The position numbers and the translations under genes are program-made. The notes below the pieces were generated by a model. It saw only the letters and a program-made list of their open reading frames with translations, was not told the DNA's origin and searched no databases. Shown here piece by piece: positions 2,423-30,870 of a stretch of DNA of 37,289 nucleotides (position 1 is its first letter; each line of letters begins with the position of its first letter). Source of the DNA: Gammaproteobacteria bacterium (GTDB lineage: Bacteria; Pseudomonadota; Gammaproteobacteria; Pseudomonadales; Azotimanducaceae); the NCBI GenBank assembly GCA_009841615.1, contig VXLL01000033.1, forward strand, positions 1 through 37,289, given 5' to 3'.

Positions 2423-5400
2423 TTAGTTATCGGGAGCAACTGCCATTACGTCGCTTGAGTAGTCCCCCCTTGAGCCGTCGATCGTGACATTGAAGACCAA
2501 TCGATAGTCCCGTGCGTCCGGAGGATTGTACGGACATAATTCATTGGTCGTTCGTACTTCTCCATCGACATCGGTCCAATTTTCACCAAGAGAATTGCGG
2601 AACTGCCAAGCAGAACTATGCACCGTATAGGAGACGTCTCCAATCTGGCGATTGTCGAATGCTTCACACTCGGTTATCGAAAGACTGTCTAACTGTATCG
2701 AACTGGGTTCAACGTTCATTGCGACTAACCGCACTAAATATTGGTCGTATAAATCGAACGTCGGTCTCGGAATCGCATCATTAGCACCGGTTACGCGTTC
2801 AAAGCGATGTATGGAATCTATCCAATCATCAACTACAACGTACGAAAATTTGCCATTCTGAGTACTCACACCAAAAGCATCTACCATGTCATTAAACTCG
2901 GGTAGTTGATTTCCATATCGGTCGGGTTGTTCGTTCGATGACCAGTCGGATATGTAGAGTTCTCTCGTGGATTCATCAAAAGTGACCACATAGTTCATAT
3001 AGCGACAGAAAACTTCAATAGCGGGGTACTCTGTCCTGTGGACGTCGTTGACTAGACACTGACCGGAGTCCCAAGAATCTGGACGCCGAATATGAGAGGG
3101 GAAGAACGGGAAATTATCATTAATGTAATAATTATCAATTGCGGCGATTGCTAGGGGTGTCGAGCGGTTCTCACTGCTAATGTCAAACACAGCGACTGCA
3201 GGATTATTCTGTCCAACCACAAACAGGTAATCGCCACTAGCGTCAAGTGTTATACTCGCGCCATCGAATCTGTTTGAGTTTTCATCGAGTCCGGTACTTG
3301 TTAACCAAGATGTGTGAGTGGTGGTGGAAGATATACTGAGCATACCCGTTTCGTCGTCTCTTCCGAAGGTAAATATCCGATCGTCAGAGAGACCATACAG
3401 GTAGTCCTGGATTGGATCAAAGGACAAAAACCGTAAGCCAGTCAATTCGATGATCTCCGTTTTTAGTGCGTGAGATGCGCTCGACGATGTCGCTACTTGG
3501 ATAAGAGACATTTCACAGGGGCCATCAACTCGGTAGGTTGCAATCGTGCCTAAGCCGATCTTGTAAATGTATCGGCCAGTACCGTCGTGTAAAACCTGGG
3601 TAGGAGTATGTCGGAAGTCACTCTCTACGCTACAGTTGGAAACAGTCCGATCAGTCTGATCTAAACCCTCGAACAATACAAAGCCTGTTCTCAAAGGCGC
3701 GTACAATGCGCCGCGAGCAGCATTCCAACCTAGGACTGGTAGGTCGGGGACGTCAACTGTTTCTCCATCGGCATCTTCGTACGGGATCGTTTCGACTACG
3801 CTGAGGTCGTCAGTGTCATCGGAAAGTCCAAGTACGAGCATTTCGTCTTCAACTGCGATGAGCACTTTGTCGAGGTCGCTGCCAACGACCGCTCCCGCCG
3901 TGGGATTAATCAGTTCTTCGATATTGTGTCCCGTTGGACTGCCAATTTCTTGGAAGTCAAGGCTGCTCGTGATCCATGAAGGAATACGTGCTTCCCTCCA
4001 GAAAATGTCGACCTCGGTTTGACTGGTTGAAAACTCCGTCCTATTACTACGCATTGCGACCTGAACTAGATATTCAGCCCCCGCTTCCGGTTTAAAGATC
4101 GCCTCCGGTCTACCACTGATAATAAATGATCGATCGGTCGACGCTATGAGATCCCACGGATCATCGTCGTCATCACGTTTGTGAATGGCAAGGAAATACT
4201 GATCGGAAGCGCTTCTTAAACTTGCGTCCTCCCATGTCTCAGTAGAAAACTCCATCCATCCATTAAAACCGGCAGTAGGAGTCCACTCTCCCCAAACAGA
4301 TGAATGGACACCAGCACTAGTAAGGCCGTTGGCACGCGATTCATCGGGTGTCGTCGTGGCGTATTTCAAAGCCCAACTTGCATCTCCAGTCGTACCACTA
4401 ATAGATGTTGCGGCACTAATCGAGTCATTTTCTGGGGTCGCGCCCCATAGGAAAGAATTGTTGGAAACGTCGAACGAATATTCCAACCCACTATTACGGT
4501 GGATCACAATGTAGTAAGTCGTACCACTATTTACATCAAGAACAAACTCCTGGCCCGTTGCAAGATGAGTTAGCGTACTAAGAGTTGAACCAACGAACGC
4601 GCTTAGAACATCGATCTGTGCGTTCGAAAGGCGAAATGTGAATCTACCCGTGCCAGGAGCTTCCCATGCCCACCATAGCGAATGAGAAATTGTTTGGGCT
4701 GGTTCACCCACTTCGATTGTACGATCAACTCCACTGCACGTACTACACTTTGTCCTGCTTCCCTGCGCGCCAGAAATCTCAATGGCATTGGAGAACATAT
4801 CGTTACTCATCAGGTTGGAGGTGGATGATTCTTCCCAGGATAACTCATAAGATCCTTCAAAATCGGAAAACTCGGCGTCGGTACTGACGCAGATTTTGTA
4901 CTCTTGGTTTGCTGACACGGGTATATCCGCATTGTAGTAGGCAGGATCTGAAACTAAACGAAGGTCGTCGACAGAATCGCCTAGAAAGACATACACATTC
5001 GGCCGTTCGTCTGAGTAAGGAGCATCTGCTTCAAATGTCCAAACACCATCGGAGGGTGCAGTCCATGTAAACCAAGTCGTACCGACCGATACGTGCCCTC
5101 CAGGCTCACCTTGTTCAACAGTTGCGTATGCATTATTGCCCGTTACATCGCCATTCTCACCGGAGAGGGCGATACTATCAGCAAAGTCATCGTTAACTGG
5201 TTTTGCGTCAAATTTTTCCCAAGTGAACTCCAGTTCAGGAGCTCGCAAGCTCCAGTAAGTATTAACCCGTAAATAGTAATCGGTATGTGCTTGTAAATAA
5301 AACTCAAAAAAGTCGGTAGTCCACATATTTCCTGGTGGCGGTAGAAACATGTTGTCTTCTGAAATTAGTTGGAAGGACACGTTCGCGTTCCTCGGATCTT

Positions 5401-8365: not shown

Positions 8366-8582
8366 CAAAAAATCTCCTCCTTAGACTAGGATCTGAAAGT
8401 ATTGGACGGTTTCTCTAAACCTATTATGGCACGAACTAAGTAAGAAAGTTCTACAAAGCGTCACTATTTTGTTGATATCTCAAGAATCTAGCCAATAGCG
8501 TAGAACAAAAAGATCGTGACCTATTCCAATATACGCTACGTTGTTAACTGTGAATTGGAGACAAATGAACGACCAACAATCA

Positions 8583-9446
8583 TCAATCTTCATCGGAGTC
8601 TGTCGAAGGAACGAGTGCTTCTTTACGAAATTCCCATTCGCGGACTATTTCGAGTAAGTCTAAAGATTCGCGCATCGATTGCGGGAACGCAGAAAACGGT
8701 GCGGCTAATTCGACGATGTTTTTCGCGGCTTCGTCGAGAACTTCATGCCCCGACGAACGGACTACTCGAGTCTCTTTCACTGAACCATCAGGTTTAATTG
8801 CAACGTAGAGTCGCAACTTGCCGTAGAGTTTTTTCTCGACGGCTTCCTGCGGATAGTTTAACTGCCCGATCGCTTTTACTTTCTTCAACCACGCTTTAAG
8901 GTAGAACTCTTCCTCGGTATTGGTGGCATCATCGACTTCAATATTTCGTACGTTTTGTTCGCTTGACTGTTCGCGGATGATCGCGGTAGCAGTTTTGAGC
9001 AAGTCTCGTATCGATACTGGAGGGCGATCGTTCGCTGTCATATTTGGTTCGAGAACGTTGACGACATCAGTGGACGCATCTGTTATTACGTCCATTTTTG
9101 GAGCCGTGGTGTCGGTGTCTCTATCAGGACTAAGGCTAGTGTTTCTTTCGAGTTGTGCAGGGTTGCTCTCTCGTTGATTAAGCTCTTGGTCTGGCACAGT
9201 TTCGGGAGTGGAGTTGGAAACATCTGGATCAAGAATTTCTGCGTTGAGATCGTGACTTTGCGTGGGTGTGTTAGATACTATACTCGCCGACTCAGACTGA
9301 GGAACGAGCTGGACATTTAATACCCGTGGTTCTCGATCCCGTGCTTCGAACCGAAAGTCTATCGCAAATATGACGAGAGTATGGAAGATCACAGATCCAA
9401 TGAATGCGATCACCAATAGTTTCGTGTCGTTGAGAGCCAACTTCAT
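8583..9446 (-). CDS. tonB: Energy transducer TonB
   Basis: 287 aa. Residues about 10-30 form one membrane helix with an internal His22, as in TonB/TolA-type transducers. A Ser/Thr/Asp/Glu/Pro-rich periplasmic linker follows to about 180. Residues about 190-275 are a clear TonB C-terminal domain: G-Q-L-N-Y-P, then A-V-x-x-K-L-Y-G-K-L-x-L-x-V-x-I-x-x-D-G-S-V, then SSGHEVLDEAA and AAPFSAFP. It would couple the proton motive force, via ExbBD, to TonB-dependent receptors. It lies 59 bases downstream of gshB on the same strand, the usual gammaproteobacterial order, so the two are probably co-transcribed. The linker is acidic rather than Pro-Lys rich, unlike classical TonB. No exbB or exbD is in the window. 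Confidence 0.9.
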   Translation of the reverse strand: MKLALNDTKLLVIAFIGSVIFHTLVIFAIDFRFEARDREPRVLNVQLVPQSESASIVSNTPTQSHDLNAEILDPDVSNSTPETVPDQELNQRESNPAQLERNTSLSPDRDTDTTAPKMDVITDASTDVVNVLEPNMTANDRPPVSIRDLLKTATAIIREQSSEQNVRNIEVDDATNTEEEFYLKAWLKKVKAIGQLNYPQEAVEKKLYGKLRLYVAIKPDGSVKETRVVRSSGHEVLDEAAKNIVELAAPFSAFPQSMRESLDLLEIVREWEFRKEALVPSTDSDED

Positions 9447-14646: not shown

Positions 14647-15114
14647 ATGTCAAGATTAACTGACGCACAAGTTCGCGGGAAGGGTACCGCGGTCGCGGTC
14701 CAAAACGTGGAAGATCTTTTGATATATCACGGCAAACTCAAGCCGTTATTTTCCGCACCTTGTGATAACTGGTTTGAAGACATCGACCCCCCAGAAAGAG
14801 TCCCAACTGGATATATTGCTATTCGCCAACTCTCCACTGGGTGTTTAGCGTTTTTACCAAAAGACAAACTTGAAGCATTGGACTATTCGAAATACGAGAG
14901 CGAAACGTTGGACTATTCGAAATACGGGAGTGAAACTTTGGACGATTCGAAATACGAGAGTGATACGTTGGACTATTCGAACAACGAGAGTGAAACGTTG
15001 GATCGTTCAGACAATAAGCGTGACAAGTTGGGTCGCTCAAAAAAGAAACGTCGGTGGGATTCAATGGACGTATTAGATACGATCTTTTCGATATTGTTTC
15101 CAAAATGGTGGTAA
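14647..15114 (+). CDS. Hypothetical protein with 10-residue Ser/Tyr/Asp tandem repeat
   Basis: 155 aa, not recognised. Residues 1-77 look like a folded domain containing two Cys (APCDNW and STGCLAF) and a V-P-x-G-Y-I-A-I segment. Residues 78-137 are about six 10-residue repeats with consensus L-D-Y-S-K-Y-E-S-E-T; the last two degrade to basic sequence (L-D-R-S-D-N-K-R-D-K, L-G-R-S-K-K-K-R-R). The C-terminus is hydrophobic and aromatic (LDTIFSILFPKWW), so it may associate with a membrane. The ribosome-binding site is weak (GAGC, 10 bases before the ATG). No signal peptide. Function unknown; it is likely real because the repeat stays in frame and the charge pattern is protein-like. Confidence 0.6.
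   Translation: MSRLTDAQVRGKGTAVAVQNVEDLLIYHGKLKPLFSAPCDNWFEDIDPPERVPTGYIAIRQLSTGCLAFLPKDKLEALDYSKYESETLDYSKYGSETLDDSKYESDTLDYSNNESETLDRSDNKRDKLGRSKKKRRWDSMDVLDTIFSILFPKWW
14878..15057 (+). repeat. 30-bp tandem repeat, about six units, inside the coding region
   Basis: Units start at 14878, 14908, 14938, 14968, 14998 and 15028, each opening with TTGG. The first four are near identical (TTGGACTATTCGAAATACGA type) and the last two are diverged. The period is a multiple of three, so unit gain or loss would keep the reading frame. Confidence 0.9.
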
Positions 15115-18489: not shown

Positions 18490-19146
18490 ATGAATCTGCT
18501 AAATAAGTACGTTTGGAAACATTTGTGGAGTATCTACACCCTTTCGTCTAGGCAGGTATTTGAGCTAGTTAAACCGCCAGATACGCCAATATTGATTCCG
18601 GTCCTCTTTGTCTGTATAGCGTCCACGCTGATACTTTGGGTGCTAATGCCGATTCTTTATTCGATCATCGGTGTCACTTCAATGGATGATTCCATCATTC
18701 CAGCTGAGCTAGTTGAGTTTAGTCTTACATCTATATTGAAGCTCGTAATTTGGGTTCCTACCACAGTTTTAGCACTCTTTGTAGCGTTGGTTTTGCTAGG
18801 GACATACTTCTTCATTATCGGCCGACGTTTTCGTATAGACATATCTTGGAAACATTGGCTTGGTTTCGCTGCATGGATAAACATTCCAATGGTATTGACA
18901 CTGTTTGGGACTTCTTTGTTGAGCGTCTGGGGTCACACTCCAAATCCGTCCCCCATCGTCTTTGTTTCCCTTATTGTCATGTTCATCATATTGCCTCTTG
19001 TGTGGGCGGTCGTTCTTTGTGTTCAGGGTTTAAGAATTTGGACCGAAAGAGAGATGTCCTTTTGCGTTTGGATCAGTTTATTACCTTATTTCGTTTACGC
19101 AATATTGACGACACTAGACATCATTTACTTAGCAGTTCAAGCATAG
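18490..19146 (+). CDS. Yip1-like multi-spanning membrane protein, paralogue A
   Basis: 218 aa. The N-terminus is cytoplasmic-looking with W-K-H-L-W-x-I-Y-T-L-S-S-R-x-V-F-E-L-V-K-P-P-D-T-P. About five membrane helices follow (about 35-60, 78-105, 125-150, 155-180, 190-215), with FRIDISWKHWLGFAAW between the second and third. Layout and the SSRxVF...PP...P opening resemble small bacterial Yip1/DUF1282-type membrane proteins; the family call is tentative. A strong AAAGGAGG site lies about 13 bases before the ATG, longer than usual, and nearby GTG codons run into stops. It is clearly paralogous to 26015-26677 across the whole length. Function unknown. Confidence 0.8.
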   Translation: MNLLNKYVWKHLWSIYTLSSRQVFELVKPPDTPILIPVLFVCIASTLILWVLMPILYSIIGVTSMDDSIIPAELVEFSLTSILKLVIWVPTTVLALFVALVLLGTYFFIIGRRFRIDISWKHWLGFAAWINIPMVLTLFGTSLLSVWGHTPNPSPIVFVSLIVMFIILPLVWAVVLCVQGLRIWTEREMSFCVWISLLPYFVYAILTTLDIIYLAVQA

Positions 19147-19339
19147 TAGCGTAGGATAGGAAACGAGACTGCGCACTAGCTGAATCGATTGCTCCGTTGA
19201 TCTTTGATCGAAAGCTGTACATCAGTGATCGCGCTTAATGCCAATCCTAAAGTGGAATCGACATACTCAATGGTTGTCTCGAGCTTTAGGTCAATACACG
19301 CTCGGAACGTTTTAGCAAGGCGGCTTCGAATCTCCACAT

Positions 19340-20593
19340 TCACTGCGAATAAACAGGAAATTTCCTACACAGTTCAAGTACGCTCCTCCCGATCGAAGCA
19401 ATCCTATCCTCGTTGGTGACATCGTCGAGAATGTCACACATCCAATCTGCTAGAGTGGAACACTCTTGCGCACCAAAACCTCGACGAGTTACCGCCGCTG
19501 AACCAATACGGAGCCGGTTCGGTACTCTCGGCGAGTGCGGAGTCCTGCGACCGGAAATTTTGTTCACGGAGATATGAGCATGTCTGAGAGCTCCATAAGC
19601 AATTTCACCAGGGGCATCGTTAGGAGTGAGATTCACCAGGAACATATGGATATCGGTGCCACCGGAAACAACGGTATAGCCACGATCCAAAAATCTTCGA
19701 GCCATGGCGCGGGCATTTTCAACGACCCCTAGTTGATAGTAACGAAACTCTCGGGTCGCAGCTTCTTTAAAACACACTGCTTTCGCCGCGACGACATGCA
19801 TTAAAGGCCCACCCTGTGTTCCAGGAAAGAGTGCAGAATTGAGTTTCTTCTCAACTTCTGTGTTTGCTCGAGCTAAGATCAATCCACCCCGTGGTCCCGC
19901 GAGAGTTTTGTGAGTCGTAGTAGTTACGACATCGGCATACGGTACTGGGTTGGGATAAACTCCAGCGGCGACCAAGCCGGCAACATGTGCCATATCTACC
20001 ATCAAGTAAGCACCCACCGAGTCAGCAATTTCGCGAAACTTGGCCCAGTCTAACGTACGACTATACGCCGAAAAACCCGCAACCACAATTTTCGGTTGGT
20101 GTTCTTGAGCTTTCACAAACGCGCCATCGTAGTCGACTAATCCATCATCCTGCTTTACGCCGTAGTGAATCGCGTTGTAGATTCGACCTGAAAAACTGTC
20201 CGGAGAACCATGTGTAGGGTGCCCGCCTTGCGTAGAACTCATACCAAGTAACAGGTCACCGGGTTCGATCAACGCGAGATAGACCGACGCATTAGCTTGA
20301 CTACCGGAATGAGGTTGTACATTCGCATAGTCGGCATCAAAGAGTCTTTTTGCACGATCAATCGCTAATAGTTCTACCTGATCGACAAAGTCGCAACCAC
20401 CGTAATATCGTTTGCCTGGATAGCCTTCTGCGTATTTATTAGTCATCCTGCAACCCTGTGCTTCGAGCACTGCTGGAGAAACGTAGTTTTCTGAAGCAGA
20501 GAGCTCGATGTGATTTTCTTGTCGACTATTTTCTGCGGTAATCGCCTCCCATACATGGGCATCGAAATCACACAATTTTTTTTGACAAAACAT
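19340..20593 (-). CDS. glyA: Serine hydroxymethyltransferase homologue with altered folate site
   Basis: 417 aa, full length and close to E. coli GlyA throughout. The PLP site is intact: SGSQAN (96-101), His125, the DMAHVAG block (200-206) and TTTTHKT with PLP lysine Lys229; the substrate carboxylate Arg362 also remains. Canonical GlyA interconverts serine and glycine using tetrahydrofolate. Three positions corresponding to folate contacts in E. coli GlyA differ: Leu121 is Ser120, Leu127 is Pro126 (which has no backbone NH) and Asn347 is Ile346. The segment normally reading like VTSGIR is VPNRLR, and the Gly loop reads FPGTQGG. I infer weak or absent folate use, perhaps aldolase or another PLP activity. 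It is divergent from the RiPP cluster (165-bp gap). The symbol reflects homology only. A canonical glyA may exist elsewhere. Confidence 0.85.
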
Positions 20594-20719
20594 AGACGGA
20601 ATAAGGAAGCGTATTCAATAAATTGAACACCGAAATTCTAGTGTTTCAAAAACAGAGAAATGCGTAAATATACCTTTACTCGAGTTAGTACTACTGAATT
20701 TAGCGTTGAGAGTGTAATA

Positions 20720-20725
20720 TATAAT
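20720..20725 (+). promoter_or_regulatory. Probable -10 element for the RiPP precursor
   Basis: A perfect TATAAT lies 33 bases before the precursor ATG. No good -35 sits at 16-18 bases; TTTAGC at 20699-20704 is the nearest weak match with a short spacer. An AAAGGTG ribosome-binding site follows at 20748-20754. It may be an extended or activator-dependent promoter. Confidence 0.5.
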
Positions 20726-20758
20726 TGATTCGTTTAATACTGCATCGAAAGGTGATTT

Positions 20759-21085
20759 ATGGAAGATCAAAAATTACAGCACCTCCGCGAGAAATTGGGA
20801 ATCTCTTCCCACGATCAGAAACAGGCATTGGGTAAAGAACTCGGTCAGAATTTGCAGAAGAAAGTTTCAGGCTATACCGAAGCCGGTGGTAATTTCGTCT
20901 CAGCTCCTCCCGGTACTGAGTCAGTGGCGGCTGGTGGAAATTTTGTTTCTGCTCCACCCGGATCGGAACAAGTAGCAGCTGGTGGAAATTTCGTCTCCGC
21001 TCCACCTGGAACCGAGTCGATAGCTGCAGGCGGCAATTTTGTCTCAGCTCCTCCTGGTACTGAATCGAAAGCAACAAAGAGCTAG
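20759..21085 (+). CDS. RiPP precursor with four tandem GGNFVSAPPG cores
   Basis: 108 aa, no Cys. Residues 1-41 are a polar, probably helical leader (Leu/Lys/Gln/Glu-rich, opening MEDQKLQHLREKLG). Residues 42-104 are four repeats of 16 residues, each containing an identical GGNFVSAPPG followed by a variable T/S-E-S/Q-V/I/K linker and Ala-Ala. AAAGGTG precedes the ATG by four bases. A radical SAM/SPASM gene begins 257 bases downstream on the same strand, then a possible oxygenase gene. Phe-Val-Ser matches the FxS tripeptide of FxsA-type precursors, in which the SPASM maturase links the aromatic ring to the beta carbon of the third residue; I infer up to four such rings (Phe46-Ser48, 62-64, 78-80, 94-96). 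Where the leader is cut, and whether the linkers are cut into four peptides, cannot be seen. Confidence 0.85.
   Translation: MEDQKLQHLREKLGISSHDQKQALGKELGQNLQKKVSGYTEAGGNFVSAPPGTESVAAGGNFVSAPPGSEQVAAGGNFVSAPPGTESIAAGGNFVSAPPGTESKATKS
20882..21073 (+). repeat. 48-bp tandem repeat, four units (core-peptide repeats)
   Basis: Units begin at 20882, 20930, 20978 and 21026. Codons of the ten-residue core differ between units almost only at third positions (for example GGT/GGA/GGC, TTC/TTT, TCA/TCT/TCC, CCC/CCT/CCA), while the amino acids stay identical. The linker residues do change. This is an old array held by selection at the protein level rather than a fresh duplication. Confidence 0.95.
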
Positions 21086-21342
21086 GGACATCTAAAAGAG
21101 ACCGATTATCTGAAATCCAAGCTTTAAACATTTGAGGACGCGCTACGTCTTAGGAAAATAACGTGGTTTCGCACACCTGTGTGTGATTCGCGGCTGCGCT
21201 AGTTTAATGTTTGGCTAGAGAGCAGATGTGTTCATGGTCTACTAGAGTAGCGTAGGAGTGTCTGAACACAAACTCGGTGTTGATCTTTAAAGTAATTTTT
21301 GTCCTTGTTTGGATAGCTTAGACTGCGCCAATTCTGAGAGCA

Positions 21343-22545
21343 ATGTACGAAAACGCACATACATCGAAGACCATAATTTCTTCTGATCGAGTCAAGGTTG
21401 ACTTTCGCAATCTTCATACGCTTGCGATCACTCTGAAGATTTCAGAACGTTGCAATCTCGATTGCGACTACTGCTATTTCTTCAACGCGGGAGACGATAG
21501 CTATGAAAGTCATTCAGCACTCATATCCCAAGACACGATCAACGTACTCGTAGCGAGACTCAAAGAATTCGCAGCAGAATATGAGCTGAGAAGAATAGTT
21601 ATCCACTTGCATGGCGGCGAGCCTCTGTTGATGCCGAAAGATCGCTTCAACGGGATTTGCGAAGAAATTAGATCAAATCTGGATCCCATCGTAGATTTAG
21701 CATTGACCGTGCAGACCAATGGCATGCTGATCGATCTCGAATGGATCGAAATGTTTAAGAAGTATGGCATTCAGGTGGGAATAAGTCTTGACGGCGCGCA
21801 GAAACACAACGATGCGCACCGCCGCGATCATCAAGGCAGATCGTCGTATGAAGCTACCGCGCGCGGCATAAAGTTATGTCAGGAAAACCTCCAACAATCA
21901 CCAATGATTCTGTCTGTCGTGGACGAGAAATTCGACGCAAAGGAAATCTACTCGCACTTCCGGGAAGATCTAGGCGTAGATCATTTTGACTTTCTGCTTC
22001 CGGACATGAATCATGACAACTTTGAAGGTAACGCGGAAGCCTATGGTGACTTTCTGATTGATGTTTTCGATCAAATGGTAAACGATGACGACTCCGTAAG
22101 CGTTCGGATAATCGATCACTTCTTGGCCCGGATTTATGGACATGGTAACTTCCTTTTCAGTAGCGAGAGATATACACCAGAAAATCTTCTAGTAACTGTT
22201 TCGTCCGAAGGTGGTATGGGGCCGGAAGACACGATTAGATCCACGAAGTTCTGGAGTGGATACGAATATCGAGACGTGAAAGAAACCAGCATTGGTGAGG
22301 TTATACAAGATCCAATATTTCAGGATTTCGTATACGGTAAAAATACACCAGCAAAAGCGTGCTCGAATTGTTGCTGGCGCGATGTTTGTGGAAGTGGCCA
22401 ACCCGAACATCGGTATAGAAGTGAAAACGGTTTTGACAATCCTTCTGTATATTGCGCAGGATTAGACAAGTTCTACACGCACGTGGTGAGGCACTTGGCT
22501 CTACAGGGTGAATCGTTGTCCACTCTCAGCGCGGAGTTGGTTTAA
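21343..22545 (+). CDS. Radical SAM/SPASM peptide maturase (FxsB/XyeB-like, cyclophane-forming type)
   Basis: 400 aa. The radical SAM cluster motif is CNLDCDYCYF (Cys37, Cys41, Cys44); HGGEP (90-94) and QTNG (about 126) are the SAM-binding strands, and GISLDG follows near 145. The C-terminal SPASM region has Cys340, Cys343, Cys344, Cys349 and Cys371, enough for auxiliary iron-sulfur binding. The usual Cys before this region is absent (VSSEGGMGPED), as in FxsB/Xye-type maturases, which join an aromatic side chain to the beta carbon of a residue two positions on. A GAGAG site precedes the ATG. Gene order precursor-maturase-oxygenase implies it acts on the repeats at 20882-21073. I see no separate N-terminal RRE domain. 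Exact bond type is inference. Confidence 0.92.
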   Translation: MYENAHTSKTIISSDRVKVDFRNLHTLAITLKISERCNLDCDYCYFFNAGDDSYESHSALISQDTINVLVARLKEFAAEYELRRIVIHLHGGEPLLMPKDRFNGICEEIRSNLDPIVDLALTVQTNGMLIDLEWIEMFKKYGIQVGISLDGAQKHNDAHRRDHQGRSSYEATARGIKLCQENLQQSPMILSVVDEKFDAKEIYSHFREDLGVDHFDFLLPDMNHDNFEGNAEAYGDFLIDVFDQMVNDDDSVSVRIIDHFLARIYGHGNFLFSSERYTPENLLVTVSSEGGMGPEDTIRSTKFWSGYEYRDVKETSIGEVIQDPIFQDFVYGKNTPAKACSNCCWRDVCGSGQPEHRYRSENGFDNPSVYCAGLDKFYTHVVRHLALQGESLSTLSAELV

Positions 22546-22645
22546 GCAGCTTAGCCTATTTCACGCGCTCGTGCTCGTCGATTCGTAGGTTTAAACGATT
22601 GACGGTGGAGAAACGCGTGTCCGCTCTCAACATACAAAAGTTGTC

Positions 22646-23356
22646 GTGAAGGTTTACTATGATCCTCGATTGGGGTCAGTACATGATTTGATCACGTACA
22701 GCGACACGATCGTCTCCGTTCAAGACAATTTTTCGGACAATGTCAATTATCGACCGAACGCGAAATTACCCTCAAACTTTCGAAAGTTAGAAGAAGTTGA
22801 GGTCCAGAAATACACAGGTACTCTTGACGATCTATCACTTGATGATGAGCTCAATTTTGTTGCGATCTTTCCCTGCGAACCAAAGTCGGATGAGACCTTG
22901 AACTTCTCTCCTTTTACAAGCTTATCACAGATTAGCGTGCTGAATACTTCCGTCGATTACCCGAGCAGTCCGTCGATTACTGTAGACAAGACCACTGGGC
23001 TTAAGTTGGGATTGCATTTGGACACATGGGATGATCACGATGTTCAATCCAGATGGAAGAGCCGCAACCGCATCGTAGTGAATCGCGGACCAGGCGACCG
23101 GTATGTCTTTCTAGTGCTAGTACCGATTGAAGAAATGGCTGAGTTTGTGGACTCGCCGAGCAACCTTCATCCTTGTGAAGTCGCCGATGTGTATATAAAA
23201 CACACCGAAAGCCGTATTCCGTGTCTTCGAATTTGGCAGCAACCAAACGTTGCTTATGTAGGTTGTACCGAGCGTCTCGTCCACGATGCGTGCGTTCATC
23301 CAAACCATGAAAAAGCGGAGAGCCGACACTACCTAGGTCATTTCGTAAAAGTCTAA
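22646..23356 (+). CDS. Putative HxD...H non-haem iron (2-oxoglutarate-type) oxygenase of the RiPP cluster
   Basis: 236 aa, GTG start, 100 bases after the maturase on the same strand. I do not recognise a named family with certainty. The middle has LGLHLDTWDD (His124-x-Asp126) followed by NRIVVNRGPGDRYVFLVLVPI, a strand pair with Arg152. Near the end are TERLVHDAC (His213) and HYLGHFVKV. A His-x-Asp with a distal His about 90 residues later and an Arg fits the double-stranded beta-helix Fe(II)/2-oxoglutarate fold; assigning His213 as the third ligand is a guess (His218, His221, His228 and His232 are near). If correct it would hydroxylate the modified core, for example at Asn, Val or Pro. No signal peptide; cytoplasmic. 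It could also be a cupin-like non-enzymatic partner. Confidence 0.6.
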   Translation: MKVYYDPRLGSVHDLITYSDTIVSVQDNFSDNVNYRPNAKLPSNFRKLEEVEVQKYTGTLDDLSLDDELNFVAIFPCEPKSDETLNFSPFTSLSQISVLNTSVDYPSSPSITVDKTTGLKLGLHLDTWDDHDVQSRWKSRNRIVVNRGPGDRYVFLVLVPIEEMAEFVDSPSNLHPCEVADVYIKHTESRIPCLRIWQQPNVAYVGCTERLVHDACVHPNHEKAESRHYLGHFVKV

Positions 23357-23412
23357 GTCCTGTCGTGTTTTTCTACGAGCGTGTCGCGGTTCGAACTAAA
23401 TTTGGTCGTTGA

Positions 23413-23715
23413 TCAACCACTGGGTTTTCCAGTCCTCCAGTCCCACATCCGAATGTGAGTTTGTGCCAGGGTACCTGCCTTACTGTAGGGACAATCCTCA
23501 ATAAAAGCTCGGACTGAATCTAGTGAGGAGGCTTCGACTACTAACAGGAAACCATCGACTATACTGACATCGTCGTCGTGAGTAGGACCGGCGTTGTGGA
23601 CGACAACGTCCGAGTGTTCAGGATGACTATTTAAATAGTCCGCAAATGCTAACTGAACTTCACTACCAGATCGCACTCGACCGGGTTGGTGATGGGCGAT
23701 AACTACATAGTACAT
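23413..23715 (-). CDS. YciI-like protein
   Basis: 100 aa. The sequence opens MYYVVIAHHQPG and has a later segment DDVSIVDGFLLVVEASSLDSVRAFIEDCPYSKAG, then an ending W-D-W-R-T. This is the ferredoxin-like YCII-related fold: an N-terminal strand with His, a D-G-x-x-x-[LV]-V-E strand, then a D-P-[FY]-type helix (here C-P-Y-S-K-A-G). Family members are small dimeric cytoplasmic proteins; some act as dehydrochlorinases or lyases, most have no known role. The ribosome-binding site is weak. It is convergent with the RiPP oxygenase gene and about 120 bases from the permease gene on its own strand, with which it might be co-transcribed. Confidence 0.8.
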   Translation of the reverse strand: MYYVVIAHHQPGRVRSGSEVQLAFADYLNSHPEHSDVVVHNAGPTHDDDVSIVDGFLLVVEASSLDSVRAFIEDCPYSKAGTLAQTHIRMWDWRTGKPSG

Positions 23716-23832
23716 CGTTTGATCCGATTTTGTTGTTTAAGAGAAGTCAGAAATTGTAAGCACGGACTGGCTAGCTCTCTTGGAAGACAAACCGTGCGTG
23801 TGGGGCCGGTTTAAGTGAGAGACCGAGCATAT

Positions 23833-25596
23833 CTACTCTGTGTCATCAACCTGATGCTGCCGATAATCTACTCGAACCGTGACGATATCAGTTTCGTAAT
23901 ATTGTTGATGGCGGACGGACGAAGCAAGATGACGCAGAAGACGTAATGAAATGTCCTGTTCGACCATAGCAGCCGCATTCGCTTCGCCCATGAGCGCTAT
24001 CCGATCCTGAATGTTTTCTTCACCCTTTGAGGATACGAAATCCAAGACAATCGCGCGATCTTCGCCGTATATTGTTAGTAGTAATCGTCTCCCTACGTCG
24101 GTATTGAGTGCTTCGTTTCGGTTCAGCGTTAACCAAATCTCTTCGCAGACTGCGTTGAGCCGATCAACCAGCTGTTTGTCCCATTTTTTTCGTGTTGCGA
24201 GGGCATCGAGAAACTCCCAAATTTCGCGCAACGCAGATTCATTAAATCCCACTTCTATACGGTACCGACGTGATTTTGTTAGTTCAAGAAATATGGTCAA
24301 CACGACCGCGACGATACCGCCTGCGAGCATTCCGTTTTGCAGGAGTACGCGCGCAAATTCTGGCGCAGCCTCGGGGAATATTGCTTGGGTTTGAAATCCG
24401 ATCCCGAGCCAGAAGGAAATCCCAACTATCAATCCTTTACGAAAATCAATACCGTCCTGAATGATCACCCGCGCGCCAATGATGAAAATAGTCGCCATCG
24501 TGACAGTGATAAATGACGCGACTACCGGACTTGGAATAGCAAGGATCACTGCGAGTGCTTTGGGAACGAACGCGAGAAGGATTAACAACAATCCCAGCGC
24601 GATGCCGATGCGCCGAGAACTTAGCCCGGTTATCTCCACCATGGCTGCGCCTGAAGGCCTGAAACCGAGCGGCATCGTACACGCTAAGCCCGATAGCAAA
24701 TTACCCGCTGCGTCTCCAGCTACTGCTCCTTGAACAGCTCGAAAGTCCACCGCACGTGGCTCCTCCCAAGAGACTTGTTGAATTCCAACTGCGCCACTAA
24801 TTGTCTGCATGGTGCAGATTAACGCTACCAAGATGAATGCCGGAAGCAATACCCAAAACTCAGATTTGAACTCAAGGTCTAAGACAACTAATTCTGGATT
24901 TGGTATCCCGATCCAAGAAGCTGTCGCGACACGGTCAATGTCGTACAAGCCGAACATCGCTCCAACTATCGAGCCCAAAACGATCCCGATAACCGGTCCC
25001 CAAAATCGCATCCGATTCTTTCCAATTAGTGTGATTCCGACAATGAGACTCATAGTCACAAGCGCGCTGAGTGCCGCACCAACTAGAGACACGTCTCCGA
25101 TCAACACGTCAGGTTGATTGAACAGGACGGGCATAATCGTGATTGGAGTGAGCATGAGAACCGTGCCTGTCACCGTCGGCGTGAGTATGCGTCTGAGCAC
25201 GGAGAGGTGCGTAGAAAACAAGACTTGAACTAACGCGAAGCAAACCACCAAAGTTGCGAGCAACGCCATTCCGCCAGCGGCTAACGCCGTAATGCTGACG
25301 GCGATGGCCGCTATTGACGGTCCCACCGCAAGAATATACCCCGCGCCAAACCTACCAATCCGCTGAGCCTGCAGGATCGCGGTTATACCAGATATTGCGA
25401 CGGACGCAAATACGGCCCACTGCAGATTTTCTTCCGGTTGACCAGCTGTTCTAAACACGACTGTGGGAATCATCACTATGCCCGGTATCACCAGGCAAGC
25501 GATCTGAACTGCGACACCGAAGCTCTGAGGAATCGGGGTTGCAACGTTCGGATCTCGCCGGTTCAGTGAGCGCTGATCGGATTCGTTGAGACTCAA
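23833..25596 (-). CDS. NCS2-type xanthine/uracil permease-like transporter with C-terminal degenerate ATPase-like domain
   Basis: 587 aa. Residues about 25-440 contain some 12-14 hydrophobic helices and NCS2 signatures: a central EEPRAVDFRAVQGAVAGDAA block followed by LSGLACTMPLGFRPSG. In known NCS2 carriers this region shapes the nucleobase site; here the acidic residue of the usual Q-x-E-x-[PG]-x-T-x-[YF] motif is changed, so the substrate is uncertain. Residues about 440-587 are soluble and resemble anti-sigma/RsbW-like HATPase folds: LVDRLNAVCEEIWLTLNRN where an N-box should be, and DISLRLLRHLASSVRHQQYY like the G-L-x-L-[IL] helix, but the D-x-G-x-G box is not evident. Such a fusion suggests transport or sensing coupled to a regulatory domain (inference). 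Confidence 0.85.
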   Translation of the reverse strand: MSLNESDQRSLNRRDPNVATPIPQSFGVAVQIACLVIPGIVMIPTVVFRTAGQPEENLQWAVFASVAISGITAILQAQRIGRFGAGYILAVGPSIAAIAVSITALAAGGMALLATLVVCFALVQVLFSTHLSVLRRILTPTVTGTVLMLTPITIMPVLFNQPDVLIGDVSLVGAALSALVTMSLIVGITLIGKNRMRFWGPVIGIVLGSIVGAMFGLYDIDRVATASWIGIPNPELVVLDLEFKSEFWVLLPAFILVALICTMQTISGAVGIQQVSWEEPRAVDFRAVQGAVAGDAAGNLLSGLACTMPLGFRPSGAAMVEITGLSSRRIGIALGLLLILLAFVPKALAVILAIPSPVVASFITVTMATIFIIGARVIIQDGIDFRKGLIVGISFWLGIGFQTQAIFPEAAPEFARVLLQNGMLAGGIVAVVLTIFLELTKSRRYRIEVGFNESALREIWEFLDALATRKKWDKQLVDRLNAVCEEIWLTLNRNEALNTDVGRRLLLTIYGEDRAIVLDFVSSKGEENIQDRIALMGEANAAAMVEQDISLRLLRHLASSVRHQQYYETDIVTVRVDYRQHQVDDTE

Positions 25597-26014
25597 TGTC
25601 TAGTCCCTGTATAGTGTACGTTTGTCGACGACGACAGTTGCGTATCCTCTGACACGAGCCTCTGAACAACTCCAAGGGCAAGGCTGTATGCAGTCAGACA
25701 GTCAAATGACATTGTAAATAGTAGAAGAGTGCTCTAGGTGACTTGAGAAGTTGATTCAAGAGTTTCGGTAACAGTTTATCGAGCTCTGCAACGTGTTAGA
25801 GTCCGCGATTCTCACAATGAATTTGATAGCACTATGTGCGATAGAATAAACCACTGTTGGTAAATTGGTAACACTCTGTCATTTGTCGCTGTGTATGAGA
25901 AGGCGAATTGGCATTGCAGTTGCTTAGGTACATTTAGGATTGGAGCGACGCTAGCAATTACCGTGTAGTAGTGTTAATCAGTCTCCAATCGAGTAGCGAA
26001 CAGGTAAGTTTGAC
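25597..26014. other. Divergent intergenic region, no gene seen
   Basis: 418 bases between the permease gene and the second Yip1-like gene. A minus-strand open frame overlapping the permease start (to 25681) lacks any coding feature. Promoters for both flanking genes should be here; I could not assign -35/-10 boxes confidently. Confidence 0.4.
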
Positions 26015-26677
26015 GTGAATCACTCGAGACGAGACGACTGGAAAAGATTGTTAAGGGTCGTCTCCTTTTCATCGAGAGAAGTATTTGAAGAGATAAGACC
26101 ACCTTCCACACCGATCTTGGTGCCTGCACTGTTCGTGTTGTTTTCAGCCTTCATTCTGTGGCTACCTCTTTACGTACTGGTTTTTACTGGTCTATTGTCG
26201 ATTCCACTAGTTGGTGAGCCGAACCTTGGGATTGCGATTTCGTCTTGGCAAGATTTGCTTGCTTTATTAGTTCCTATCCCAGTTGCATTCATGTTCGTCT
26301 ACGTTAGTGGAGCGGCAATTCTCGCAGCTTGGTATTTTGCGATTGCTCGATATTTTCGAGTCGATATTTCGTGGGAACACTGGTTTGGTTTTACATGTTT
26401 GACGCTTGTTCCAATGATCGTTGTGCCTTGCTCTCGACTGTTCATATTCGTCCTCGCTAGTTTAGATGACCCGCCTCTCGTTTTGAGTATTGTCGTGGTA
26501 GTGTTGTTTTATTTACTACCGGTCTTGTGGACAGTGTCTCTCACTCAACAGGGATTACGTGTTTGGACGGCTAAAGGTAGAGTCATAACCCTCCTCATAA
26601 GCGTAATTCCGTACGTGCTTTACGTCCTCTTATCTGTACAGAAAGTCGTGGGGTTGATGCACGCGGCTTTTTCGTAG
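26015..26677 (+). CDS. Yip1-like multi-spanning membrane protein, paralogue B
   Basis: 220 aa, GTG start with CAGGT upstream. The N-terminal signature W-K-R-L-L-R-V-V-S-F-S-S-R-E-V-F-E-E and PPSTPILVPALF matches paralogue A (18490-19146). About five membrane helices follow at similar spacings, and FRVDISWEHWFGF aligns with FRIDISWKHWLGF. The conserved D-I-S-W-[KE]-H-W-[LF]-G-F segment between helices 2 and 3 is the best family marker. The two copies bracket the RiPP cluster and permease on the same strand, 7 kb apart, and a third N-terminal fragment sits 140 bases downstream. Function unknown; family assignment to Yip1/DUF1282-like proteins is tentative. Confidence 0.8.
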   Translation: MNHSRRDDWKRLLRVVSFSSREVFEEIRPPSTPILVPALFVLFSAFILWLPLYVLVFTGLLSIPLVGEPNLGIAISSWQDLLALLVPIPVAFMFVYVSGAAILAAWYFAIARYFRVDISWEHWFGFTCLTLVPMIVVPCSRLFIFVLASLDDPPLVLSIVVVVLFYLLPVLWTVSLTQQGLRVWTAKGRVITLLISVIPYVLYVLLSVQKVVGLMHAAFS

Positions 26678-26816
26678 TTTGAGTCTGAATGATCTTAATC
26701 CTACATTTCATAGGCTACTTAGTCGAACAATAATCGCAAGTGGTGACAGTACGATTTGACAACAGACTTAGAGTTCGAATCTTGAACGAAGATATATTGC
26801 ACTTGAGAAACATCGA

Positions 26817-26906
26817 ATGAATCCTTCAACAAAATTCGATTGGTCACGGATCGGAAAGATTTTTACCTTCTCTTCAAACGTGGTGTTTATTCAGGCAACT
26901 ACTTGA
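26817..26906 (+). pseudogene. N-terminal remnant of a third Yip1-like paralogue
   Basis: ATG at 26817 opens a 29-codon frame whose product (MNPSTKFDWSRIGKIFTFSS, then NVVF) aligns without gaps to the first 24 residues of both neighbouring paralogues: Met-Asn, the Trp at position 9, hydrophobic positions 12, 15 and 16, the [FL]SS triplet and V-F. It then diverges (IQATT) and stops at 26904-26906. No further homologous sequence, such as the PP...TP segment, follows. It is probably the stump of a deleted tandem copy, though a functional short peptide cannot be excluded. Confidence 0.55.
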
Positions 26907-27015
26907 TTGTTGCTTCGTTAGTGCTCAAGTAAACGTGCTTTCGTTGAGTTAGTTGCAAGTATTCACGTAGTCAGTCACTAGTGCTCTGAACTGAAACAGA
27001 GTGTTGTCGTTCGAG
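26907..27015. other. Intergenic sequence between the remnant and the terminator
   Basis: Together with 26678-26816 this makes up the rest of the 396-base gap between the Yip1-like gene B and the ARPP-1 gene. Apart from the remnant and the terminator I see no gene or site in it. Confidence 0.4.
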
Positions 27016-27045
27016 AAAAAAGAGCTCCGGCACTACCGGAGCTCC
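27016..27045 (-). terminator. Rho-independent terminator for the ARPP-1 gene
   Basis: On the minus strand, GAGCTCCGG and CCGGAGCTC form a perfect 9-bp stem with a five-base loop, followed directly by TTTTTT. It begins about 30 bases after the stop of the minus-strand gene ending at 27074. Confidence 0.92.
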
Positions 27046-27073
27046 AAGTCACAGTACTCTACTTTAAGAGTGT

Positions 27074-28081
27074 TTAATGGGTTGCGTTTCCCTCGGTTGC
27101 TGATAGTTCAGGATCCAATGCAAATGCACATAGATGGAGTAGTTGGTCGTCGTGCACTAAAGCACCACCGGTGAGATGATCGTCCTTGAATCGAAAATTC
27201 TCGCCAATGCACACGCCGTCAAAACGTTTAGTCCAAGACGACTTCAATCTCTTGGCGAATTCTTCAGTAGCCGCTAAACACTGCTCTTTCGTTAACTTGC
27301 TTATCGGCTCAACAGCACCCATTGGCTGAGTCATAGAAGAATCAACAGCATCGAGTGCATAGCTTCGTACCAACTTTTGAATCATCCGTTTGTGAGTAGC
27401 TTCGGTAGCAAACAGTTCAAGCCCCGAAACTACGCCATCAATCAAGAATACGGATCCCACTTGGGTGGGTACAGGCTTGAATGACTTGAGGTAATCTTCC
27501 ATTTGCGACTCTGCGGAAACATACATCGCGTCCGACGCGGAAGACGGCGAATGCGCCTTCATTCGACTTGATTTGAGGTTAATGTCCCGCCACACACCGG
27601 ATTGGTCACTGCGATATTCGTGATTGGAATCGAGACTAGCAGATACTGCTTGATTCTCAAACGCGCGTCCGCGTGCATAGTGCATCCTATTTGCAGCTTT
27701 AAACCGTTGCTTCGAGCGCTTCTGGTGTTGGTGTCGCCAACGTCCGGCCTCCACGCAGGAGACAGGAATGGTTTGTTTGGTTTTTGGCGTTACGAAAATC
27801 GACACATTCAAGATACGGTTTTGCATTGCACCAAGAAACTCTTCTCCCTCAAACAGCAACGCAAATTTGTCGGACTGATTGCGGAAAAGGATGTCATTAA
27901 CGCTCGCGCCTCCATCCAACTCTTCGACTTCGAACAGAGAAGCTTCTAAGCCTTCGTCCAATGTAAAGTACTCTGGCTGGGAGTCGTGTGTGTTTAACAA
28001 CGGAACGATCGCAAGATTGTTGCAAATCGTCGGGTTGCCAATTTGTAATTCTGAGGGAAAAGGGGATATAGTAGTGTTCAA
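27074..28081 (-). CDS. ARPP-1 domain protein (DUF6569-like)
   Basis: 335 aa, TTG start with AGGA seven bases upstream. The central segment LLFEGEEFLGAMQNRILNVS is followed by IPVSCVEAGRW, the characteristic signature of the ARPP-1 domain (ARG and Rhodanese-Phosphatase-superfamily-associated protein). The domain was named from comparative genomics of RNA/NAD-linked conflict systems, and its biochemical activity is, to my knowledge, not settled. A charged, Arg-rich insert follows (about 110-200). The C-terminal part (about 205-330) continues the fold with VGSVFLIDGVVSGLELF and ends GGALVHDDQLLHLCAF. It stands alone with its own terminator, without the rhodanese or phosphatase partners I would look for. 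Cytoplasmic; no signal peptide. Confidence 0.8.
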   Translation of the reverse strand: MNTTISPFPSELQIGNPTICNNLAIVPLLNTHDSQPEYFTLDEGLEASLFEVEELDGGASVNDILFRNQSDKFALLFEGEEFLGAMQNRILNVSIFVTPKTKQTIPVSCVEAGRWRHQHQKRSKQRFKAANRMHYARGRAFENQAVSASLDSNHEYRSDQSGVWRDINLKSSRMKAHSPSSASDAMYVSAESQMEDYLKSFKPVPTQVGSVFLIDGVVSGLELFATEATHKRMIQKLVRSYALDAVDSSMTQPMGAVEPISKLTKEQCLAATEEFAKRLKSSWTKRFDGVCIGENFRFKDDHLTGGALVHDDQLLHLCAFALDPELSATEGNATH

Positions 28082-28627: not shown

Positions 28628-29719
28628 ATGCGATATTTGTTCAATTCAGTATTTGGTGTTTTCTCAGCGCGAAGGTTACTCGCGCTGATTTTGCTAGCAC
28701 TAATGAGCGGGTGTAGTTCGGTGTATGTCTTGCCACGAGTTGAGCTCACTGATCACTTGAAAAATTTCGTCGTTATGAAAACTTCGAAAACAGACTTTGG
28801 CGCTAATGAATCTCGCATTATTGCTCTTTCCAGGGAGTTCTACCGACATTATGAGGACGAGTTTGACTTACTAGTTTTTATGGCGCACAATCCCTACAGG
28901 TTCATGGATCAATGGGAGGTCGGTCGTAGAGGCACAATGAACCTGGTCCGGAACGCTGAAGTAGGAACAGGATCAAGTATAGTCGATGTCGGGGGAATTT
29001 TTGGTTCCGAGAACAGACTCAGGGGTGTGATTTCTTTAATACATCCTGATCGAATATTTACTGAATCTATGCTGCTGCACGAGATCATGCATCTATGGTA
29101 TACCGATCTCGAGGTCATTCCGACTACGATGTACTCTCACTGGGGATTCAGTAGTGTTGGCGGACAACTGGGTGGATTCCAGCAAGCTGACATAAGATCA
29201 CTAGGAGACGGGAAATACTCGGCAGGAAACTTCGCACCACAGCGCGCAAAGACTTCTGTACCGTACAGTCCGCTAGAAATGTATTTAGCAGGGTGGATAC
29301 CTCCTGAAGAAGTGCCCGATATATGGGTCGCGGAGGATGGCTCGTGGTTAATGCGGGAACGCTCTGGCGGACGACCCCAACATCAAACAGACGCGGAAGG
29401 GGATCGGATATTTACAGCTAGTCAGATATCAACATGGAGTATAGAAAAAATCATCGGAAAATTGGGTCCACGGACACCGAACTTTGAACAGTCTCAGAAA
29501 GAGTTCCGTATCGCTTTCGTCCTTGTTACGGACGGTGAAGAGCCTGTTAAAGAAGAGTATTTAGACGCAACCAACTTATTCATCGAAGAGTTTACCAAGA
29601 AGGGTCCGATATCAACTTGGTTTAGAAACACATCGCGTGATAGCCTACTCAACTTTTGGGAAGCAACGCGAGGTATTGCTACTCTGGACCTGGGCGATCT
29701 TCGGTCGTTTAGAAGGTGA
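28628..29719 (+). CDS. HExxH zincin-like lipoprotein, first of a tandem pair
   Basis: 363 aa. The lipoprotein signal peptide has twin Arg then a hydrophobic core and lipobox LMSGC (Cys29); Ser follows, so outer-membrane sorting is likely. The metalloprotease motif is LLHEIMHLW (His151, Glu152, His155), with HWGFSSVGGQLGG (His171) downstream as a possible third zinc ligand. The later block YSPLEMYLAGWIPPEEV is seen in other uncharacterised bacterial zincin-like secreted proteins. It is about 60 percent similar to the next gene along its whole length. Predicted role: surface or periplasmic zinc peptidase, substrate unknown. The third ligand and activity are inference. Confidence 0.8.
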   Translation: MRYLFNSVFGVFSARRLLALILLALMSGCSSVYVLPRVELTDHLKNFVVMKTSKTDFGANESRIIALSREFYRHYEDEFDLLVFMAHNPYRFMDQWEVGRRGTMNLVRNAEVGTGSSIVDVGGIFGSENRLRGVISLIHPDRIFTESMLLHEIMHLWYTDLEVIPTTMYSHWGFSSVGGQLGGFQQADIRSLGDGKYSAGNFAPQRAKTSVPYSPLEMYLAGWIPPEEVPDIWVAEDGSWLMRERSGGRPQHQTDAEGDRIFTASQISTWSIEKIIGKLGPRTPNFEQSQKEFRIAFVLVTDGEEPVKEEYLDATNLFIEEFTKKGPISTWFRNTSRDSLLNFWEATRGIATLDLGDLRSFRR

Positions 29720-29778: not shown

Positions 29779-30870
29779 TTGAAACGATTTTTTAAAGCTA
29801 ATTCGTTTAGCAGCACTTCACGTTGCCTATTCATGCTTATATTCGTAGCGCTGGTGAGCGGATGCGGTTATCGCTATTTTCTACCAGGTGCTAGTGTCAC
29901 GCAACACTTAGAAAACCTTGTCGTAATGGAGACTTCGAAGACAGACTTTGGACCAAATATGACTCGGACGATTAGCATCTGTCGAGAATTCTATCGACAC
30001 TATGAAGACGAGTTTGATGTACTAGTTCTGATTGCCCATAACCCTGAATATATCGAGGATCTATGGGGAGATGGTTATTCTGGCAGAATGAAGGTGGTTC
30101 GGAACGCCGTAGCAGGCATAGGGGTAGAAACACTTGACATTGGGAACCTGTTCGGGTCGGAACACAGGCTCAAGGGGGTCGTGCGTTTAGTACACCCTAA
30201 GCACGTGTTCGACGAAACTCTGTTGCACGAACTCATGCACCTGTGGAAGTCTGATCTCGATGTTATTCCGTCCACCGAGCAAGGACACTGGGGTTTCAGT
30301 AGCGTGGGGGGGCAACTCGGAGGATTTCAACTAGATGATCTCAGATCTTTAGGAGACGGGAAATACTCTGCAGGTAACTTCGCGCCGCAACGAGCATTGG
30401 AGTCTGTGCCCTACAGCCCATTGGAGATGTATTTAGCGGGCTGGATACCGCCTAGTGAGGTATCCGACATTTGGGTAGCGGAGGATGGTTCGTGGTTAAT
30501 GAGTAAATGGATTAAAGGACGCCGCTACGTACAGAAGGACGCGGAAGGCAATAGAGTCTTTAAAGCTAGAAAGATTTCGACGTGGACCATAGAGCGAATT
30601 GTCGATAAGTTAGGTCCACGTTCACCAAGTTTCGAACATTCCCAGAAGGAGTTTCGCGTCGCGTTTGTGTATGTTACTACCGGTCGCGCTCCGCGTGAGG
30701 AATTAGAGCTTGCGAGTACAGAATTCTACATCCGACAATTCACCAAGAAGGGGCCAGTATCCACCTGGTTAAAGGGTGTATTAAAGGTTGACAGTAGATA
30801 CAACTTTTGGGAAGCAACGCGAGGCATCGCTTCTATAGAAACAGGCGATTTACAGTCTTTTAGGCACTAG
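29779..30870 (+). CDS. HExxH zincin-like lipoprotein, second of a tandem pair
   Basis: 363 aa, the same length as its upstream paralogue, starting at TTG 29779. No good ribosome-binding site is visible, but a later ATG would leave a signal peptide that is too short. Lipobox LVSGC (Cys29) is in the same position as in the partner. The zinc motif is LLHELMHLW (His150, Glu151, His154), with HWGFSSVGGQLGG (His170) conserved. The blocks YSPLEMYLAGWIPP and NFWEATRGIA are shared. The gap is only 59 bases, so translation may be coupled with the first copy. The most diverged parts are about residues 90-125 and 250-262, which may set substrate range (inference). Confidence 0.8.
   Translation: MKRFFKANSFSSTSRCLFMLIFVALVSGCGYRYFLPGASVTQHLENLVVMETSKTDFGPNMTRTISICREFYRHYEDEFDVLVLIAHNPEYIEDLWGDGYSGRMKVVRNAVAGIGVETLDIGNLFGSEHRLKGVVRLVHPKHVFDETLLHELMHLWKSDLDVIPSTEQGHWGFSSVGGQLGGFQLDDLRSLGDGKYSAGNFAPQRALESVPYSPLEMYLAGWIPPSEVSDIWVAEDGSWLMSKWIKGRRYVQKDAEGNRVFKARKISTWTIERIVDKLGPRSPSFEHSQKEFRVAFVYVTTGRAPREELELASTEFYIRQFTKKGPVSTWLKGVLKVDSRYNFWEATRGIASIETGDLQSFRH

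Follow-up and report, generated by a model that had tools for sequence, protein, structure and literature searches.

A candidate multi-core RiPP system pairing a triceptide-type radical SAM/SPASM maturase with a MicC-family oxygenase in an Azotimanducaceae genome

Contig VXLL01000033.1 of the gammaproteobacterial assembly GCA_009841615.1 (Azotimanducaceae; a draft genome of 2.66 Mb) carries three consecutive forward-strand genes encoding a repeat-bearing precursor peptide, a radical S-adenosylmethionine (SAM)/SPASM maturase and an oxygenase-like partner, hereafter the cassette. It was analysed within the stretch covering positions 1 to 37289 of the contig (the window; 37,289 nucleotides), following an earlier note that had proposed a ribosomally synthesised and post-translationally modified peptide (RiPP) system with a SPASM maturase and an iron-oxygenase-like partner. 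This much of the proposal held: the maturase falls in the triceptide superfamily and the partner has the sequence of a non-heme iron oxygenase, so that a RiPP with a ring-former and an oxygenase is well supported at the sequence level. More specifically, we favour, with a probability of about 0.66, a RiPP of triceptide type with several cores, in which the maturase would form rings and the partner would add oxidation. The gene set, its co-occurrence, the codon-level constraint on the core and the enzyme families are established; all chemistry, processing and biological role we infer. The elements of the cassette are the following.

20719..20754, + strand: ATATAAT (20719-20725) and a Shine-Dalgarno-like AAGGTG (20749-20754) before the precursor gene, from an alignment of 7
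20759..21085, + strand: open reading frame (ORF) of the precursor peptide, 108 aa, a leader of ~42 residues and then four 16-residue units; found in 7/58 genomes
20885..20914, + strand: core 1, GGNFVSAPPG
20933..20962, + strand: core 2, GGNFVSAPPG
20981..21010, + strand: core 3, GGNFVSAPPG
21029..21058, + strand: core 4, GGNFVSAPPG
21343..22545, + strand: radical SAM/SPASM maturase, 400 aa, triceptide (three-residue cyclophane-forming enzyme, 3-CyFE) superfamily, in a clade of its own on the XyeB side
21451..21474, + strand: CxxxCxxC radical SAM motif, CNLDCDYC (C37, C41, C44)
22360..22455, + strand: C-terminal SPASM-type cysteines C340, C343, C349 and C371
22646..23356, + strand: putative MicC-family alpha-ketoglutarate/Fe(II) oxygenase, 236 aa, start uncertain as the open frame extends upstream
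23015..23023, + strand: H124-x-D126, two predicted iron ligands
23282-23284, + strand: H213, third predicted iron ligand

The precursor with its four identical cores, as described in the earlier note, can be read directly from the ORF. The repeat has a period of 16 residues in the protein and of 48 in the DNA (Tandem Repeats Finder), with TESVAA-like spacers between the cores, and no 6-mer occurred three times in any of 10,000 codon shuffles. Counted as exact GGNFVSAPPG matches, with no degenerate core seen by eye, the cores number 4, 3, 4, 4, 3, 4 and 2 in the seven precursors of the genus. These 24 cores from 7 genomes specify a single peptide through 23 different DNA sequences, which rules out recent duplication or gene conversion as the source of the repeats; third codon positions vary at 10/10 sites and first or second positions at 0/20. 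The leaders have diverged to 57-88% identity with that of the window (ratio of non-synonymous to synonymous substitution rates, dN/dS, 0.07-0.26), and the spacers vary while the cores do not, the spacer variation being small. Because third positions all vary, first and second positions never do and the leaders diverge, the core peptide is under strict constraint and is not the product of recent copying. The aromatic-x-x motif F-V-S is present in 24/24 cores.

The precursor belongs to no Pfam family, and its only Pfam and NCBIfam matches lie far below cut-off, those to thiovarsolin and FdhF being taken as noise. The core letters were not found in print in the open-licence PMC literature. Upstream, ATATAAT and AAGGT are identical in 7/7 genomes; a consensus promoter scan gave no site at 20719-20754, and promoter/terminator matches across 20590-23420 were fewer than in shuffles.

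The radical SAM/SPASM gene reported in the earlier note is present, and both its CxxxCxxC motif and its C-terminal cysteines are invariant in 7 orthologs. Pfam assigns the product to Radical_SAM above cut-off (60.9 bits), with SPASM below it (15 bits against 21.5). Its best NCBIfam match is XyeB (TIGR04496; 284.7 bits, cut-off 450), followed by YhhB (NF041707; 272.4 bits, cut-off 445), FxsB (TIGR04269; 262.0 bits, cut-off 370) and GrrM/OscB (TIGR04261; 138.0 bits, cut-off 310). As these scores are well below each curated cut-off, the maturase is, judged by its sequence, a member of the cyclophane-maker superfamily outside each named subfamily. Kinship with characterised three-residue cyclophane makers emerged from NCBIfam, from a structure search by sequence, in which the radical SAM domain of ChlB was the nearest solved structure, and from the tree. 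In the latter (36 rows, after a motif filter removed 5 of 41, namely L016, L017, L037, L065 and L072), the seven genus sequences fall into one clade (100/100) with a long branch (1.01), inside an XyeB-side group whose branch (82/92) is not starred; the group that holds the FxsB/YhhB rows (97/95) lies apart, as do the GrrM rows. The filing under FxsA/FxsB suggested in the earlier note therefore fails, both on the FxsB score and on this placement, and the precursor likewise departs from the FxsA pattern of a single C-terminal FxSxx: its cores are internal and its C-terminus reads TESKATKS. The best matches outside the genus, among evenly drawn samples of 369 genomes of the class and 398 of the phylum, are 37-38% identical, and full-length identity of the clade to the listed relatives from outside does not exceed 38%.

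The 236-aa partner retains the HxD...H pattern noted previously, H124-x-D126 and H213 being invariant in 22/22 alignment rows, window included. A family profile built from the window protein and 21 relatives matches the MicC family with E 1.7e-46 over most of its length, with HxD...H aligned, the window protein alone reaching E 0.00028. The name MicC is taken from the molecule name of a PDB entry (9vkm), and no paper among the literature matches listed could be tied to this enzyme. The predicted model of the partner (predicted local distance difference test, pLDDT, 91.9) recovers the Fe(II)/alpha-ketoglutarate dioxygenase fold in structure comparison at modest E and Z values, with 9vkm absent among the structure matches listed. 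By profile and predicted fold, the partner is thus a MicC-family alpha-ketoglutarate/iron oxygenase of putative activity. No NCBIfam model matched it, including YhhC (NF041706, cut-off 150) at E<=1, nor did it match the phage collection; at 1e-10, the window's own genome was the only one among the 398 of the phylum sample with a MicC-family match. Its relatives lie near cyclophane-maker-like radical SAM genes in 14/16 loci, two of these weakly; a contig scan using a single peptide pattern gave at least 22 loci.

In a sample of 58 genomes, comprising the organism's own and others of its genus, family and order, the precursor, the maturase and the partner each turned up in the same seven, all of them within the genus (7/18 members); these counts rest on draft genomes. 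The co-occurrence of precursor and maturase that the earlier note called for is therefore seen, and none of the 58 genomes yielded the repeat protein but lacked a maturase. The gene order is the same in 6/6 further loci, and, compared with the window, the maturase has a dN/dS of 0.02-0.04 and the partner one of 0.05-0.15 (5/6 comparisons each; dS was not computable for G010). Maturases beside a different precursor, which would have spoken against the proposal, are lacking within the genus, where 7/7 are accompanied by this precursor; more distant ones (~31-38% identical) do adjoin other precursor-like ORFs, as expected across a superfamily.

Several of those ORFs, read by eye and not annotated as genes, also carry tandem motifs. 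At L015 (Pseudoalteromonas; 4689-4928) and L072 (G279:C4; 3675-4085), tandem Y-x-Q glycine-rich units (GGNYRQSGGGSYSQSGGGDYSQ...) stand just before XyeB-like maturases and possibly represent another multi-core triceptide type. Beside GrrM-like and MicC-family genes, precursor-like ORFs read ...WSDWDNWDNW... at L045 (6620-6934) and ...WDNWGNWDNW... at L048 (2665-2994), and carry PWNNF units at L040 (3430-3711). A radical SAM RiPP with TVGG repeats has also been published, its enzyme TvgB making cyclopropylglycine (PMC9062424, accessible part). Internal tandem cores are thus less unusual than the earlier note held. Since repeated motifs occur in the precursor-like ORFs of other clusters, they are not new in kind, though we know of no earlier 16-residue unit containing NFVSAPPG.

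Three reverse-strand genes flank the cassette.

19340..20593, - strand: divergent serine hydroxymethyltransferase (SHMT) paralog with the pyridoxal phosphate (PLP) lysine motif kept, transcribed divergently 165 bp from the precursor
23413..23715, - strand: YciI-domain protein, 3' of the cassette in 6/6 loci checked, putative link to the system
23833..25596, - strand: xanthine/uracil-type permease, 3' of the cassette in 6/6 loci checked, putative link to the system

The SHMT paralog scores 566.7 bits against the SHMT model (cut-off 335) and keeps the motif TTTTHKT, whose lysine we take to be the one that binds PLP. Two SHMT copies occur in 7/7 cassette genomes and a second copy in 0/11 other genomes of the genus, 10 of which have one copy, with none found in G012 (77% complete). 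The cassette copies form one clade (100/100) and all seven differ at 18 columns that are invariant in the 17 other copies of the genus; six of these columns lie in the loop that precedes the counterpart of the E. coli arginine R363. In the numbering of the E. coli enzyme (1dfo), the changes include L121 to Ser and N347 to Ile (7/7), and F357 to Arg or Ala. All 17 other copies retain L121 and N347, presumably folate contacts. With dN/dS of 0.07-0.14 in 6/6 comparisons (housekeeping SHMT, ~0.03 in 5/6), selection still acts on the paralog, whose membership in the system is inferred from co-occurrence. In G010 the block of SHMT, precursor, maturase, oxygenase, YciI and permease is intact although none of the other window genes tested was found nearby, a pattern suggesting that the six move as a unit. 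An empty site could not be read: five other genomes of the genus hold the permease (43-52% identity; 19 kb around it) without the window neighbours tested, except for a YciI gene at 38% in L126. As SHMT-, YciI- and permease-like genes were found in none of 40 other loci (E<=1e-4), their association with the cassette is peculiar to the genus and may yet be a coincidence.

Further out, two Yip1-domain membrane proteins (18490-19146 and 26015-26677, + strand) stand either side of the block, and further Yip1-domain copies occur in other cassette genomes. A 155-aa ORF (14647-15114, + strand) with about four 10-residue ETLDYSKYES-like repeats (DNA period 30 at 14871-15002) is found in 5/6 other cassette genomes at 47-75% identity, and tandem 363-aa paralogs with a lipoprotein-like start (28628-29719 and 29779-30870, + strand) contain an HExMHLW motif that, by eye, suggests a metallopeptidase. 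As to habitat, 'Plut' in a record name may stand, at a guess, for the coral Porites lutea, and a reef host is plausible for this marine genus. The label SB0677 corresponds to a Nitrospira matched in sponges in the accessible part of PMC12203066.

The earlier note had remarked that no protease or exporter lies next door. None was found among the family-scanned genes at 18490-28081, the flanking ORFs of relatives being only partly scanned; the remark needs qualifying in that the permease adjoins the cassette and a subtilisin-like ORF lies ~12 kb away. This 1981-aa ORF (2423-8368, - strand), a subtilisin-type serine protease by eye, is ~68-80% conserved in four other cassette genomes. On another contig of the window's genome, locus L125 (G000:C7:104000-114000) holds an NHLM-type ATP-binding cassette (ABC) export pair at 3969-6179 and 6176-9121, scoring 828 and 654 bits, slightly below the cut-offs of 853 and 709. 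Its first protein carries a C39 peptidase with the Cys, His and Asp motifs in place by eye, and a 780-aa RND-like membrane protein, also assigned by eye, precedes the pair. C39 matches occur in 16/18 genus genomes, the window's included, and also in genomes without the cassette; none was found in the cassette genome G013.

Taken together, the favoured mechanism would start with the leader recruiting the radical SAM/SPASM enzyme to each repeat. Judging by the maturase family and the motif, the enzyme would, in every F-V-S, bond the aromatic ring of Phe to the C-beta of the serine at position i+2; the Phe-Ser motif pointed out in the earlier note does fit the linkage made by MscB, in which C4 of Phe is bonded to the serine C-beta with one residue in between (Phe-x-Ser; PMC11002830, accessible part). 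Each precursor would thereby acquire 2-4 identical strained cyclophanes, one per unit. As the genes are paired, the precursor is the probable substrate of the oxygenase, which, before or after ring closure, would oxidise a position within the ring or next to it; candidates are Phe, Val, Asn and the prolines of PPG. Proline appears the less likely target, because the precursor-like ORFs at L026, L036, L040, L045, L048 and L050 lack PPG. A protease whose gene lies elsewhere would then split the repeats into individual small peptides; the exporter with a C39 peptidase at G000:C7 is a weak candidate and a guess, with the Gly-Gly before each core as its cleavage site. Once exported, the peptides would serve as a small signal or an antagonist within a host-associated community.

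Several observations weigh against this reading. As the maturase scores below each of the curated cut-offs, its bond cannot be read from its family; the XyeB-side group lacks strong support (82/92), and the predicted maturase model was poor (pLDDT 52, from 7 near-identical rows) and was not used. The whole 10-residue core is invariant, which is beyond the needs of an F-x-S ring, and the window's Gly-Gly sites lack what we take to be the usual double-glycine leader pattern. The 257-bp gap between precursor and maturase is poorly conserved, and a single transcript for the two is therefore only putative. On the partner's side, relatives pair mostly with GrrM-like enzymes and not with this maturase clade, and such a radical SAM gene is missing from the fetched DNA of 2/16 loci (L041, a 4.3 kb contig, and L051) and from 1/3 plasmid matches.

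The invariance of Val, Ser, Asn and both Pro in the core would also suit a RiPP with other radical chemistry, such as cyclopropylglycine formation at Val, oxidation of Ser, modification of Asn or Pro, or Phe linked elsewhere. TvgB acts on a multi-repeat precursor (PMC9062424, accessible part), its cluster holds an alpha-ketoglutarate enzyme gene (PMC11002830, accessible part), and the maturase clade is no more than 38% identical to the listed relatives from outside; however, three-residue cyclophane makers head its NCBIfam matches and F-V-S suits the aromatic-x-x motif, and we consider this improbable, if worth keeping in mind. A product left uncut, in which the whole protein with 2-4 rings serves a surface, structural or metal-binding role, would agree with the lack of a protease among the scanned neighbours, the variable core number and the small spacer variation, whereas spacers that vary while cores do not, together with the widespread C39 match, speak for cleavage; we hold it possible, as a minority view. 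That the repeats belong to an ordinary protein unrelated to its neighbours is barely credible: it has in its favour the absence of a Pfam family and the sub-threshold matches, and is contradicted by co-occurrence in 7/7 genomes and a gene order fixed in 6/6 further loci.

The SHMT paralog might itself be a genuine tailoring enzyme, namely a PLP aldolase that works without folate, its substrate being either a beta-hydroxylated residue (one freed at the N-terminus, for instance) or a building block. Its restriction to cassette genomes, its single clade, the retained PLP motif with both L121 and N347 equivalents altered, its dN/dS and the block preserved in G010 all speak for this. Yet none of the 40 other loci has an SHMT-like gene, the paralog may be a mere neighbour with a metabolic role, and the folate contacts are presumed; we consider the idea unlikely. 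Still more speculative would be a new triceptide subfamily in which cyclisation by the distinct clade and MicC-family oxidation are followed by a neofunctionalised, folate-independent SHMT paralog performing retro-aldol or transaldol chemistry on the beta-hydroxylated residue. We know of no use of SHMT on a ribosomal peptide, and the enzyme name appeared in no paper among the literature matches listed.

On the favoured reading, a multi-core triceptide with oxidation, the triceptides gain a deep, separate maturase clade and a new core, GGNFVSAPPG. Precursors with 2, 3 and 4 cores occur naturally, each with one maturase and one oxygenase, and so lend themselves to asking how a radical SAM enzyme moves from repeat to repeat and whether ring closure or oxidation comes first. 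The SHMT with its altered folate pocket beside the cassette is a testable lead to unusual PLP chemistry.

Among known systems, XyeA/XyeB (XncAB) gives the best NCBIfam match and shares the side of the tree and a short precursor just upstream, although the maturases are 36% identical. Xenorhabdus XyeA has one W-V-N after Gly-Gly where four F-V-S cores stand here, and its locus holds an aspartyl-protease-like third gene (by reading) with HlyD and peptidase-ABC genes beside it, in place of the oxygenase and the lack of such an exporter here; for XncB or OscB the linked residues are Phe and Asn (PMC11002830, accessible part). FxsA/FxsB and MscB share the Phe-x-Ser motif, which MscB converts into a Phe-Ser cyclophane (same source), but the FxsB model gives 262 against 370 bits and the present cores are internal and tandem. 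YhhA-YhhB-YhhC has the same order of precursor, cyclophane maturase and 2-oxoglutarate-Fe(II) oxygenase; membership is ruled out by the model scores (YhhB, 272 against 445 bits; no YhhC match for the partner), and its motif links Tyr or His to Arg, unlike F-V-S (PMC11002830, accessible part). GrrM/OscB clusters likewise place a MicC-family oxygenase beside a cyclophane maturase, with several precursor-like ORFs bearing repeated motifs, but their maturase is on the other side of the tree and those ORFs are of W/F-x-N type without PPG. The poly-cyclopropylglycine (TVG) system, as far as the accessible parts of its sources go, shares a tandem-repeat precursor, a radical SAM enzyme and an alpha-ketoglutarate enzyme gene, and differs in its TVGG motif, its cyclopropylglycine product and the transporter genes in its cluster. 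Triceptides with an oxygenase are thus already known, and the present cassette is a new, well-separated member.

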